From Thermobifida halotolerans (GTDB lineage: Bacteria > Actinomycetota > Actinomycetes > Streptosporangiales > Streptosporangiaceae), in the NCBI RefSeq assembly GCF_003574835.2, contig NZ_CP063196.1, positions 1,984,001-2,048,000 on the forward strand: a stretch of DNA of 64,000 bases, read 5' to 3'. The notes below the pieces were generated by a model. The model searched no databases. It saw only the letters and a list, made by a program, of their open reading frames with translations, and was not told the DNA's origin. The translations under genes were made by a program, and so were the position numbers. Of this stretch, positions 28,714 through 35,129 are shown one piece after another. Each line of letters begins with the position of its first letter. The first letter of the stretch is position 1.

Positions 28714-29631
28714 ATGAGCAGCAGCAGAACGAACGGCAAGGTCGTCGCCCTGGAGAGCCTCGGGGACATCGTCCGCGACGGCGAGTCCGTGGCCTTCGGC
28801 GGCGGCTGGTTCGCCAACCACCCGATGGCCGCGGTACGCCAACTGATCCGGGCGGGCCGCAGGGACATCCACGCCATCACGGTCGTCGGCTCGGTCGACA
28901 TGGACCTGATGGCGGCGGCGGGAACACTGGGGCACCTGTCCTTCTCGATGGTCACCCTGGAGGCCTTCGGCCTGGCGCCGAACGTCCGCGGGGGCATCGA
29001 GTCGGGCAGCCTGCCGTTCACCGAGTACACCGGCCTGGGCCTCCTGATCGGCCTGGAGGCGCAGGGGCGCGGCATGCCCTACCTGCCCTACCGGGGCCCC
29101 TTCGGCTCCGACATCCCGGGACGCTACCCCGACATCTACGCCACCACCACCTGCCCCTTCACGGGCGAGGAGCTCACCGCGGTGCGCGCCCTGCAGCCCG
29201 ACGTCGCGATCGTGCACGCCCTGCGTGCCGACGCCGAGGGCAACGCCCAGTGGGACGGCACCTCCGGCCCCGACGTGGAGATGGCCAAGGCCGCCAAGCG
29301 GGTGATCGTCACCTGCGAGGAGGTCGTCGACCGGCAGGTGATCGTCGACAACGCGCACATGACCAAACTCCCCGGCTACTACGTCGACGCGGTGATCGAG
29401 GCCCCCTTCGGCGCCCACCCCACGTCGCACGTCCCCCGCTACGCCATGGACGCCTGGGAGCTCATGGGCTACGCCGCCGCCGCGGGCGACCCCGCCGCGA
29501 TCGCCGAATACGTCGCACAGATCAGCGGCGAGACCGAGGAGGGCTACCGGACCCGGGTGCTGAAGGGCCGCGACAGCGTCCTCAGCGCCCTCGTCGACGC
29601 GGCCGAAGTCATCGAGGGAGCGCAAGCGTGA
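28714..29631 (+). CDS. CoA-transferase family protein, alpha subunit
   Basis: A 305-residue class I CoA-transferase alpha subunit (glutaconate CoA-transferase A/IpdA-like). FGGGWFANHPMAAVRQLIRA near 31-50 is the typical N-terminal glycine-rich start, and ALQPDVAIVHALRADAEGNA is the family mid-domain motif. Members move CoA between acids or, as in IpdAB of steroid catabolism, hydrolyse a cyclic diketone CoA ester. It is first in a seven-gene plus-strand operon. The stop overlaps the beta-subunit start (GTGA). Confidence 0.82.
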   Translation: MSSSRTNGKVVALESLGDIVRDGESVAFGGGWFANHPMAAVRQLIRAGRRDIHAITVVGSVDMDLMAAAGTLGHLSFSMVTLEAFGLAPNVRGGIESGSLPFTEYTGLGLLIGLEAQGRGMPYLPYRGPFGSDIPGRYPDIYATTTCPFTGEELTAVRALQPDVAIVHALRADAEGNAQWDGTSGPDVEMAKAAKRVIVTCEEVVDRQVIVDNAHMTKLPGYYVDAVIEAPFGAHPTSHVPRYAMDAWELMGYAAAAGDPAAIAEYVAQISGETEEGYRTRVLKGRDSVLSALVDAAEVIEGAQA

Positions 29632-30479
29632 CCGACTACGAGATCCACGAACTCATGACCTGCCGCGTCGCGGCCGAGGTCGACAACGACGGCGTCACCG
29701 TGATGGGGTCGTTCACCCCCCTGGCCTACGCCTCCTACATGCTGGCCAAGCTGACCCACGCCCAAGACGCCTACCTGGTGGGCTTCGACGCGGTGGGCAT
29801 GGCCCCGGTCCAGTTGTCCTTCACCGGCGCCGAGGCCTCCGCCTACAAGGGCGCGGCCTGCCGCTGGGGCATGCTGACCGAGATCAACTCCATCCACCTG
29901 GCCAACCACGGCGGGGTCGAGGCCGTCTCCTCGGCCCAGTTCGACGGTAGCGGAGCGATCAACCTGTCGGCGATCGGACCGTTCGACGCGCCCAAGGTCC
30001 GCCTGCCCGGCGGCGCCGGAGCGGCCGAGGTGATCAAGATGTACCGCAAGATGATCGCCTACTTCGGCAACCACAACCCGCGGACCCTGGTCGACAAGGT
30101 CCAGTTCGTGACCGGCACCCGCTGGAAGGTCGGCGACCGGGCACGCGAGGAGGCCGGTCTGCAGCCCGGCCCCATCGTGGTCGTCACCAACCTCGCCGTG
30201 CTGGTCAAGGACGACGACGACCGCCCCTTCCGCATCGAGAGCGTGCACCCCGGCGTCGACGTGCGGACCGTCGTCGACAACACCGGCTTCGAACTGCAGG
30301 TGCCCGCCGACGTCCCGGTCACCGCCGAGCCGACCCAGGAGCAGCTCGACCTGCTGCGCAACCGGATCGACCCCTTCGGGACGGTGAAGTTCGACTTCGT
30401 CTCCGGCAGGGAGCGCCTCTCCTACCTCAAGGAGATCCTCGACGCCGAGTGGGACCGAGCGGCTGCGAGGCTGGCATGA
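29628..30479 (+). CDS. CoA-transferase family protein, beta subunit
   Basis: A 283-residue beta subunit paired with the gene before it. The segments DGSGAINLSAIGPFDAPKVR and LPGGAGAAEVIKMYRKM and the C-terminal VHPGVDVRTVVDNTGFELQV fit the family. I could not place the catalytic Glu with confidence; the usual GxGxAN/GE motif is not obvious, so a hydrolase rather than transferase reaction should be considered. The stop overlaps the SDR start (ATGA). Confidence 0.8.
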   Translation: MTDYEIHELMTCRVAAEVDNDGVTVMGSFTPLAYASYMLAKLTHAQDAYLVGFDAVGMAPVQLSFTGAEASAYKGAACRWGMLTEINSIHLANHGGVEAVSSAQFDGSGAINLSAIGPFDAPKVRLPGGAGAAEVIKMYRKMIAYFGNHNPRTLVDKVQFVTGTRWKVGDRAREEAGLQPGPIVVVTNLAVLVKDDDDRPFRIESVHPGVDVRTVVDNTGFELQVPADVPVTAEPTQEQLDLLRNRIDPFGTVKFDFVSGRERLSYLKEILDAEWDRAAARLA

Positions 30480-33323: not shown

Positions 33324-34105
33324 GCGAGCAGACACGGGTCACCCTCGACATCACCGGCGGACTGGCCACCATCACCCTCACCCAACCCCCGGTCAACGCC
33401 CTGGACCGGGCGCTGATCGCCGAACTGGCGGAGGCGGTCGAGGAGGTGCGGCACAGCGAGGACGCCCGCGCCGCCGTCGTCACCGGCGGGCCGAAGGTCT
33501 TCGCGGCGGGCGCGGACGTCAAGGAGATGCTGGGCTGGGACTACCGCACGGCGGTCCGCGACTCCGGCGCCCTCGGCGACGCCTGCACCGCGCTGTCGCG
33601 GCTGCCGATCCCGGTCATCGCGGCGGTCAACGGCTTCGCCCTGGGCGGCGGCTGCGAACTGGCGCTCGCCGCCGACCTGCGGGTGTGCGCGGCCGACTCC
33701 AAACTGGGCTTCCCCGAGATCCTGCTCGGGGTGATCCCCGGCGCCGGGGGCACCCAGCGGCTGCCCCGCCTGGTGGGCCCGGCCCGCGCCAAGGACCTCG
33801 TCTTCTCCGGCCGGATGGTCGGCGCCGAGGAGGCCCTGGCCATCGGCCTGGTCGACCACGTGGTCGAACCGGACCGGGTGCTGGAGCGGGCCCGGGAACT
33901 GGCCGCCCCCTACCTCAACGGCCCCGCCGTGGCGCTGCGGGCCGCCAAGGAGGCGATCGACCGCGGCCTGGAGGCCGACCTGGGCACCGGCCTGGAACTG
34001 GAGCGCGGTCTGTTCGCCGGACTGTTCGCCACCGAGGACCAGACGATCGGCATGAGGAGCTTCGTGGAGAACGGGGTGGGAAAGGCGGAGTTCCGTGGCC
34101 GCTGA
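33320..34105 (+). CDS. Enoyl-CoA hydratase
   Basis: A 261-residue crotonase with both hydratase glutamates, Glu113 (GGGCELAL) and Glu133 (GFPEILLGVIPG), and the oxyanion-hole stretch FAAGADVKEM. A true hydratase is likely. The start overlaps the stop of the dehydrogenase (ATGA), and the kinase gene begins inside its last 11 bases. It probably hydrates the enoyl-CoA made by the phosphate-eliminating dehydrogenase at 31249. Confidence 0.88.
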   Translation: MSEQTRVTLDITGGLATITLTQPPVNALDRALIAELAEAVEEVRHSEDARAAVVTGGPKVFAAGADVKEMLGWDYRTAVRDSGALGDACTALSRLPIPVIAAVNGFALGGGCELALAADLRVCAADSKLGFPEILLGVIPGAGGTQRLPRLVGPARAKDLVFSGRMVGAEEALAIGLVDHVVEPDRVLERARELAAPYLNGPAVALRAAKEAIDRGLEADLGTGLELERGLFAGLFATEDQTIGMRSFVENGVGKAEFRGR

Positions 34106-35129
34106 ACCCGCCGCGGGGACCGACCGGCTCGTCGGACTGGACCTGGAGCGGCTGACGCCGTACCTGGAGTCCGCCGTGGGGCTGGCCGGTCCCCTGCGGG
34201 CCTCCCTGATCGCCGGAGGCCGCTCCAACCTGACCTACCGCCTCACCGACGGCCGCGCGGACTGGGTGCTGCGGCGGCCGCCGGTCGGCCACGTGCTGCC
34301 CACCGCCCACGACATGGCCCGCGAGTACCGCGTCATCGACGCGCTCCACGGCACCGGCGTCCCGGTCCCCGCGCCCGTGGTGCTCTGCCGGGACCGCGAC
34401 GTGCTCGGCGCCGACTTCTACGTGATGGAGCGGGTCGAGGGCCCGGTGCTGCGCGGCGCCGAGGACACCGCGGGCCTGGCCCCCGAGGAGGCTGAGCGCT
34501 GCGCGCTGTCCCTGGTGGAGACGCTGGTCGCGCTGCACGCCACCGACCCCGCCGTGCTGGAGGGCTTCGGCCGCCCCGAGGGGTTCACCGCCCGCCAGGT
34601 CTCGCGGTGGGCCAGGCAGTGGTCGCTGTCGGCGACCCGGGAACTGCCGGAGGTGGCCGAACTGGTGGGCCGCCTGGAGCGCGCCGTGCCGCCCGCGCAG
34701 CGGGTGAGCGTGGTCCACGGGGACTACCGACTGGACAACGTGATCTTCGCCCCCGACGGCGGCGGGATCGCCGCGGTCATCGACTGGGAGCTGTCCACCC
34801 TGGGCGATCCGCTGACCGACCTGGGGCTGCTGCTGGTCTACTGGGACCCGGTCACCGAGGACGTGACCGGCACCCGGCACGCGGCGAGCGCCAACCCCGG
34901 CTTCCCCGACCGGGACGCGCTGGCCCGCGCCTACGCCGACGCCTCCGGGCTGGACCTGTCCCCGCTCGACTTCTACGTGGCGTTCGGCTACCTCAAACTG
35001 GCGGTGATCGCCGAGGGCATCCACTCCCGCTACCTGGCCGGGCAGACCGTCGGTGAGGGCTTCGAGCGGGCCGGCGCCGCGGTGCCCCGCCTGGTGGCGG
35101 CCGGACTGGCGGTGCTGGACGGCCCCTGA
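34095..35129 (+). CDS. APH-family kinase, ACAD10/11 kinase-domain type
   Basis: A 344-residue aminoglycoside-phosphotransferase-fold kinase. The N-lobe begins GGRSNLTYRL, the catalytic loop is HGDYRLDN at 208-215 (Asp210, Asn215) and the metal Asp230 is in VIDWELSTLGDP. These match the N-terminal domain of ACAD11 closely. It is the last gene of the operon, overlapping the hydratase, and its dehydrogenase partner is at 31249. Together they look like a split ACAD11: phosphorylation of a hydroxyacyl-CoA, then elimination. An antibiotic-resistance role is very unlikely in this setting. Confidence 0.83.
   Translation: MAAEPAAGTDRLVGLDLERLTPYLESAVGLAGPLRASLIAGGRSNLTYRLTDGRADWVLRRPPVGHVLPTAHDMAREYRVIDALHGTGVPVPAPVVLCRDRDVLGADFYVMERVEGPVLRGAEDTAGLAPEEAERCALSLVETLVALHATDPAVLEGFGRPEGFTARQVSRWARQWSLSATRELPEVAELVGRLERAVPPAQRVSVVHGDYRLDNVIFAPDGGGIAAVIDWELSTLGDPLTDLGLLLVYWDPVTEDVTGTRHAASANPGFPDRDALARAYADASGLDLSPLDFYVAFGYLKLAVIAEGIHSRYLAGQTVGEGFERAGAAVPRLVAAGLAVLDGP

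Follow-up and report, generated by a model that had tools for sequence, protein, structure and literature searches.

A kinase paired with a phosphate-eliminating enzyme is known from the breakdown of levulinate and 4-hydroxy fatty acids. Two reports describe how 4-hydroxyacyl-coenzyme A (CoA) is phosphorylated and its phosphate is then eliminated to give 2-enoyl-CoA with no electron acceptor (PMC12440821, PMC11342911). In mammalian ACAD10 and ACAD11 the kinase and the acyl-CoA dehydrogenase (ACAD) reside in one protein, whereas bacterial LvaA and LvaC are separate proteins in both reports, and such separate orthologues were assayed in the second (PMC11342911). Residues R626, HCMR and D753 contact the 4-phosphoacyl substrate and LvaC carries the catalytic aspartate (PMC12440821), while human ACAD11 has a helix-breaking Pro463 (PMC11342911). 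Here we describe a locus of Thermobifida halotolerans (G000) lying in a 64-kb stretch of its 5.5-Mb genome (contig C1, positions 1984001-2048000; hereafter the window), where a kinase gene (KIN) and an ACAD gene (ACADk) share a seven-gene operon at 28714-35129 (+). Since residues specific to ACAD11 are kept in both products, the two very probably constitute a phosphorylate-and-eliminate module for a hydroxyacyl-CoA, as the kinase and ACAD of the levulinate operon of Pseudomonas putida, likewise separate proteins encoded in one operon, do.

Aligned with mouse and human ACAD11, ACADk retains the segments RLaPaRLtHCMR and YDGASEVH (at residue 375), with Asp376 (mouse D753) in place of the catalytic Glu, HCMR at residues 259-262, Arg251 at the position of mouse R626 and, counted by hand on the alignment, Pro91 at that of human Pro463. 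The first match in the Protein Data Bank (PDB) was 4hr3, a putative ACAD with the Asp present, rather than ACAD11, whose entries ranked second to fourth. The signature was looked for in ACAD1 and ACAD2 of the regulon described below and was absent from both. We then compared 56 ACAD loci, T. halotolerans included, consisting of 30 best matches from different genomes and 26 loci from four genomes; as the 30 were taken as top matches in the top-ranking genomes, signature-bearing ACADs are over-represented and the sample is skewed to close relatives of ACADk. Asp occupied the base position in 40 loci, all of which also had the R626-position Arg and the motif [HY]-x-M-R (the full R/H/R/D set in 39), and the remaining 16 had neither the Asp nor the Arg/[HY]-x-M-R signature; the Pro column of this comparison refers to Pro99 of ACADk, which differs from Pro91. 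A KIN-like kinase was found in the same locus for 18 of the 40 Asp-type ACADs and for none of the 16 others (Fisher value of 0.005 for the full signature versus the rest, related loci being counted as independent). ACADk itself was scored as unpaired in this count, as KIN lies outside the 1.5-kb flank.

KIN contains the motifs HGDYRLDN (at residue 208) and DWELSTLGDP (at 230), and ACAD11 entries were third and fourth among its PDB matches. The helix C Arg-Glu, the RQV arginine and HGDYRLDN all aligned with the ACAD11 kinase domain, the equivalents of R86, R176, D220 and N225 being recognized by eye in REYRV, RQVSRW and HGDYRLDN. The locus thus shares with mammalian ACAD10/ACAD11 the substrate-contacting residues and helix-breaking Pro of the dehydrogenase as well as these four kinase residues, but distributes them over two proteins, with HCDH and ECH_d between KIN and ACADk. 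KIN is predicted to phosphorylate a hydroxyacyl-CoA rather than the free acid, and ACADk to release the phosphate without an electron acceptor. A first-pass annotation of the stretch had recognized the single operon, the Asp in DG-x-x-EVH and the ACAD11 kinase loops, and all three were recovered, with motifs that exceed a chance likeness; neighbouring genes overlap by 4, 4, 4, 4 and 11 nucleotides (nt), the single gap being 17 nt, and the Pfam families represented are CoA_trans, adh_short, Acyl-CoA_dh, 3HCDH, ECH_1 and APH. It had also presented the locus as a split ACAD11: the enzyme class holds by residues, but the separate form is not new, since separate bacterial LvaA and LvaC have been described and assayed.

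A shared palindromic operator, TNACGTTNAACGTNA, ties the operon to a regulon of roughly 50 kb. The window contains 13 matches with at most two mismatches (span 5173-53277) against 0.30 expected and a maximum of 3 in 100 shuffles; with at most one mismatch, 9 of the 12 places in the genome fall within the window. One site precedes CTa, the first gene of the operon, and others stand before ssuA, ECH_a, DUF7064, SnoaL3/livHM and MaoC, with weaker sites between EthD and kin2 and between two ligases. The site before CTa recurs in T. cellulosilytica, a further Thermobifida genome (G397; G396 to G398 belong to this genus), Acrocarpospora and two clusters of metagenome-assembled genomes (MAGs). Several matching promoters carry sites in T. 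cellulosilytica, G397, Acrocarpospora and the MAG loci L005 and L013, with 5-9 sites per locus or pair of stretches versus 0-2 in five Markov controls each. The scan found no site in L008, L010, L011 and L015, and one weak match each in L009 and L012. The operon therefore apparently belongs to a large, jointly controlled catabolic regulon that is probably governed by a MerR protein, for which MerR1 and MerR2 are candidates; the operator resembles that of LiuR. Unlike the LvaA/LvaC operon, compared here by its published description, the regulon combines the pair with a B12-dependent mutase, a CoA-transferase-like pair, HCDH and ECH, and also has a second ACAD11-like kinase, two transporters and two acyl-CoA ligases. 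The transporters are ABC systems behind operator sites, of the NMT1 type (3297-7414, -) and the branched-chain type (38207-42941, +), a hint of organic acid import.

The large subunit of the mutase, mutL, is the most unusual element of the regulon, though it lies outside the operon. Its closest solved relative is 2-hydroxyisobutyryl-CoA mutase (HCM; 4r3u), from which it differs by a six-residue insert and changed thioester contacts. The search with mutL returned 12 loci, 11 of them at 67-95% identity; the twelfth, L014 (38%), is a mutase of the ordinary kind and was left out of the clade, and L006, whose gene list is identical to that of L005 and was counted once, was left out of the alignment (its bin, MAS3.bin127, also contains L013 and may mix genomes). 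Identity was 95% to the mutase of T. cellulosilytica TB100 (L007, equal to G396) and 67-69% in MAGs from deltaproteobacteria and in one unplaced MAG. Among 396 genomes sampled from the phylum, only the own genome had mutL at E<=1e-150, and among 149 relatives 3 had it, all Thermobifida and including the own. The insert YFGHKV is common to mutL and 10 clade relatives (HFGNKV in L015). With the numbering and substrate-contact roles of methylmalonyl-CoA mutase, the thioester contacts of the methylmalonyl-CoA mutase/HCM type are replaced in all of these proteins (H244 by Gly, Q197 by Met next to a one-residue gap, R82 by Thr and R87 by Gln), with Val at the Y89 position and Gln, as in HCM, at that of R207.

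CTa and CTb, encoded by the first two genes of the operon, resemble family-I CoA-transferases. The role of Glu54 of the beta subunit in GCT is described in PMC5380842, as is IpdAB, which also lacks this Glu and hydrolyses steroid ring C. Opposite the GctB Glu (Glu54 by count on the printed chain), which is the anhydride residue, the CTb alignment has a gap, and none of six aligned CTb sequences has a Glu there. Because this Glu is absent, a CoA-transferase role of the pair was rejected. Gene order (crotonase - alpha - beta) and the missing beta-subunit Glu are shared with IpdAB and EchA20. Unlike IpdA, however, CTa has Gly107 opposite the IpdA Glu (residue 105) that is Ala in 6coj; AibA likewise has Gly (6co6 and 6coj being IpdAB and 5mzw AibAB). 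Profile scores of CTa against GctA (1.6e-38), IpdA (9.1e-35 and 1.4e-34) and AibA (2.7e-32) are about equally distant and do not separate an IpdAB-like hydrolase from an AibAB-like decarboxylase, either of which the pair may perhaps be.

Comparison of genomes distinguishes a core from added genes. An SDR (short-chain dehydrogenase/reductase) gene adjoins CTa-CTb wherever the pair is fully visible (the window, L004, L005, L007, L013, L082, L008 and L015). The same set without KIN and ACADk occurs in Acrocarpospora, in MAGs of actinobacteria and in two MAGs of deltaproteobacteria, and this recurrence points to a separate core (CTa-CTb and SDR3, with ECH_c) of perhaps ring-opening or decarboxylating function. 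KIN together with ACADk-HCDH-ECH_d was seen in three Thermobifida genomes only (the window, T. cellulosilytica and G397). The L005 and L013 clusters contain a different ACAD11-type ACAD (L005:17041-18222 and L013:17081-18262; 38-39% identical, with HAMR in PRHAMRD and the Asp) 5.4 kb from mutL, and the kinase matches in the stretches read are of the kin2 type only. We take this second ACAD as independent support, suggesting that phosphate elimination is part of the pathway.

We propose that the core would probably oxidise and open, or decarboxylate, a possibly cyclic acyl-CoA and that the mutase would rearrange the carbon skeleton, giving a product with oxygen at a position where beta-oxidation fails. 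The Thermobifida block ACADk-HCDH-ECH_d-KIN, placed behind the more widely shared core, would clear that oxygen: i) KIN would phosphorylate the hydroxyl of a hydroxyacyl-CoA with ATP, most likely at C4 by analogy with its homologues, ii) ACADk, with Asp376 and FAD, would remove the phosphate without net oxidation to give a 2-enoyl-CoA, and iii) ECH_d would hydrate this product and HCDH would oxidise it to a 3-oxoacyl-CoA for thiolysis. That LvaA/LvaC (ACAD10/11) chemistry, in its usual bacterial two-protein form, serves a core-plus-mutase regulon is, judged from sequence comparison, the best explanation of the whole, and we hold it to be rather probable. A wider reading, which we put forward tentatively and as falling short of probable, is that the regulon represents an undescribed catabolic pathway with a core common to actinomycetes and deltaproteobacteria, centred on a B12 mutase of a new functional class, with replaced thioester-binding residues, and on a ring-opening or decarboxylating enzyme of CoA-transferase fold. 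In some actinobacteria the pathway would have been extended by kinase-driven elimination of phosphate, with different ACAD11-type dehydrogenases recruited on at least two occasions.

Several observations weigh against the proposed role of the pair. Kinases of the KIN type are widespread, occurring at E<=1e-50 in 83 of 100 genomes with the own genome counted, and in the kinase search an Asp-type ACAD lay within 1.5 kb in just 5 of 27 kinase loci, the own loci and two Thermobifida orthologues being left out; the kinase by itself is therefore not diagnostic. In the tree, KIN and its two orthologues group with L089, L086, L087 and L024/L085, whose adjoining ACADs share 54-60% identity with ACADk, and with L047 of G502, where the 60% ACAD sits on another contig; this clade has a support of only 90/92. 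The regions around ACADk relatives, other than the Thermobifida cluster, were picked for having such a relative and are no random sample for pairing. Among nine near relatives (>=54% identity) with a kinase in the tree, five kinases fall inside the KIN clade (G502, G429, G445, G050 and G489), in favour of the proposal, and four outside (the second G397 copy, both G506 copies and G446), and the latter argue against regarding joint descent of KIN and ACADk as established. The Acrocarpospora core has a single zinc-type alcohol dehydrogenase homologue (L004:4501-5514) replacing the four-gene block; its two signature-bearing ACADs lie elsewhere, one next to a kinase on contig C47 and one on contig C48. 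Non-actinobacterial loci gave no kinase match. In favour of the proposal, an SDR stands beside the kinase-ACAD pair in 2 of 16 regions around ACADk relatives (G445 and G038, 53% and 50% identical to SDR3), but both of these SDRs are nearer to SDR1 than to SDR3.

The first-pass annotation had predicted a full route through all seven genes, in which SDR3 would reduce an oxoacyl-CoA, KIN and ACADk would act next, followed by ECH_d and HCDH, with the CTa-CTb pair activating the acid. The common operon, together with the SDR3-like genes beside the pairs in G445 and G038, agrees with such a linear path. However, L004, L005 and L013 have SDR3-CTb-CTa, and L008 and L015 a set of SDR-CTa-CTb, with no adjoining KIN/ACADk, so SDR3 may serve a step other than feeding the kinase; moreover, CTb lacks the transferase Glu, and the regulon already holds two acyl-CoA ligases. 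The class of KIN and ACADk stands; the single linear route is partly supported at most and appears quite unlikely. A setting with a mutase and possibly ring opening would also be compatible with KIN and ACADk acting on another hydroxyl (5-hydroxy, tertiary or on a ring) derived from that chemistry instead of a plain 4-hydroxyacyl-CoA, but ACADk retains every one of the R626/HCMR/D753 contacts to the 4-phosphoacyl substrate, and we consider this alternative unlikely. Although the domain models call APH and acyl-CoA dehydrogenase, as they would for a conventional kinase of the aminoglycoside type and a conventional FAD-linked dehydrogenase that are neighbours by chance, the residue signature and the PDB ranking contradict this reading, and the APH(3') model scores 38.5 bits versus a cut-off of 205 bits; such a coincidence is highly improbable.

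Two further kinases resemble KIN. The own-genome paralogue at C1:2532201 (54% identity) lies among SDR genes, one of them fabI-like by eye, and the 14 kb read there contained no ACADk match. The kin2 product is 29% identical to KIN; its loop WGDVGVGN (WGD for HGD) retains the Asp and Asn, and by eye the helix C Arg-Glu is retained and the R176 equivalent absent. It was found in the Thermobifida, Acrocarpospora, L005 and L013 clusters, with none seen in the L012 stretch. It was considered as the partner of ACADk and may be a second kinase. Beyond KIN, the next likely gene is taken to start 275 nt further on, at 35405; this short-chain dehydrogenase gene (35405-35930, +) is seemingly broken across two reading frames in the window, whereas a 711-nt SDR match occupies the corresponding place in T. 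cellulosilytica (L080:1208-1918). Near the regulon, an FAD_binding_2 oxidoreductase and an OYE-type flavin oxidoreductase (47992-51564, +) are possibly pathway members.

Table 1. Features of the T. halotolerans locus, in window coordinates
Feature	Position	Strand	Description
SDR1	7574-8350	-	alternative candidate for oxoacyl-CoA reductase
kin2	14627-15649	+	second ACAD11-kinase-like protein; start taken at an ATG
B12-binding small subunit	24528-24935	-	
mutL	24980-26647	-	methylmalonyl-CoA-mutase-family large subunit, remodelled active site
MeaB-type GTPase chaperone	26644-27645	-	
Perfect operator	27659-27673	+	between divergent MeaB and ECH_c
ECH_c	27816-28613	+	crotonase-family protein immediately upstream of operon; start taken at 27816
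Operator site TGACGTTGAACGGTA	28641-28655	+	58 bp upstream of CTa
CTa	28714-29631	+	family-I CoA-transferase-like alpha subunit; Gly107 opposite the Glu that is Ala in 6coj
CTb	29628-30479	+	CoA-transferase-like beta subunit; no Glu at GCT Glu54-beta position
SDR3	30476-31252	+	short-chain dehydrogenase/reductase; 63% identity to SDR1 of same regulon
ACADk	31249-32454	+	ACAD11/LvaC-type ACAD homologue; predicted phosphate-eliminating
HCMR codons (ACADk 259-262)	32023-32034	+	
Asp376 codon of ACADk	32374-32376	+	predicted catalytic Asp (mouse ACAD11 D753)
HCDH	32472-33323	+	3-hydroxyacyl-CoA dehydrogenase
ECH_d	33320-34105	+	enoyl-CoA hydratase
KIN	34095-35129	+	ACAD11/LvaA-type predicted hydroxyacyl-CoA kinase (Pfam APH)
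HGDYRLDN codons (KIN 208-215)	34716-34739	+	kinase catalytic loop
MerR1	53793-54290	+	candidate regulator of operator set
MerR2	55566-56123	+	candidate regulator

A literature search covering titles and abstract openings, with subscription papers mostly outside it, found no published description of the mutase, the regulon or the actinobacterial pair. The enzyme pair is well-founded but not new, and it is the pathway setting that is unusual. The pair extends the recently explained removal of a 4-hydroxyl group to a complex actinobacterial pathway, with the two activities available for study on separate proteins. The setting weighs more than the pair, since the changed substrate contacts of the mutase point to a substrate that described mutases may not handle, and the question of its chemistry has been made testable through a handful of genes.

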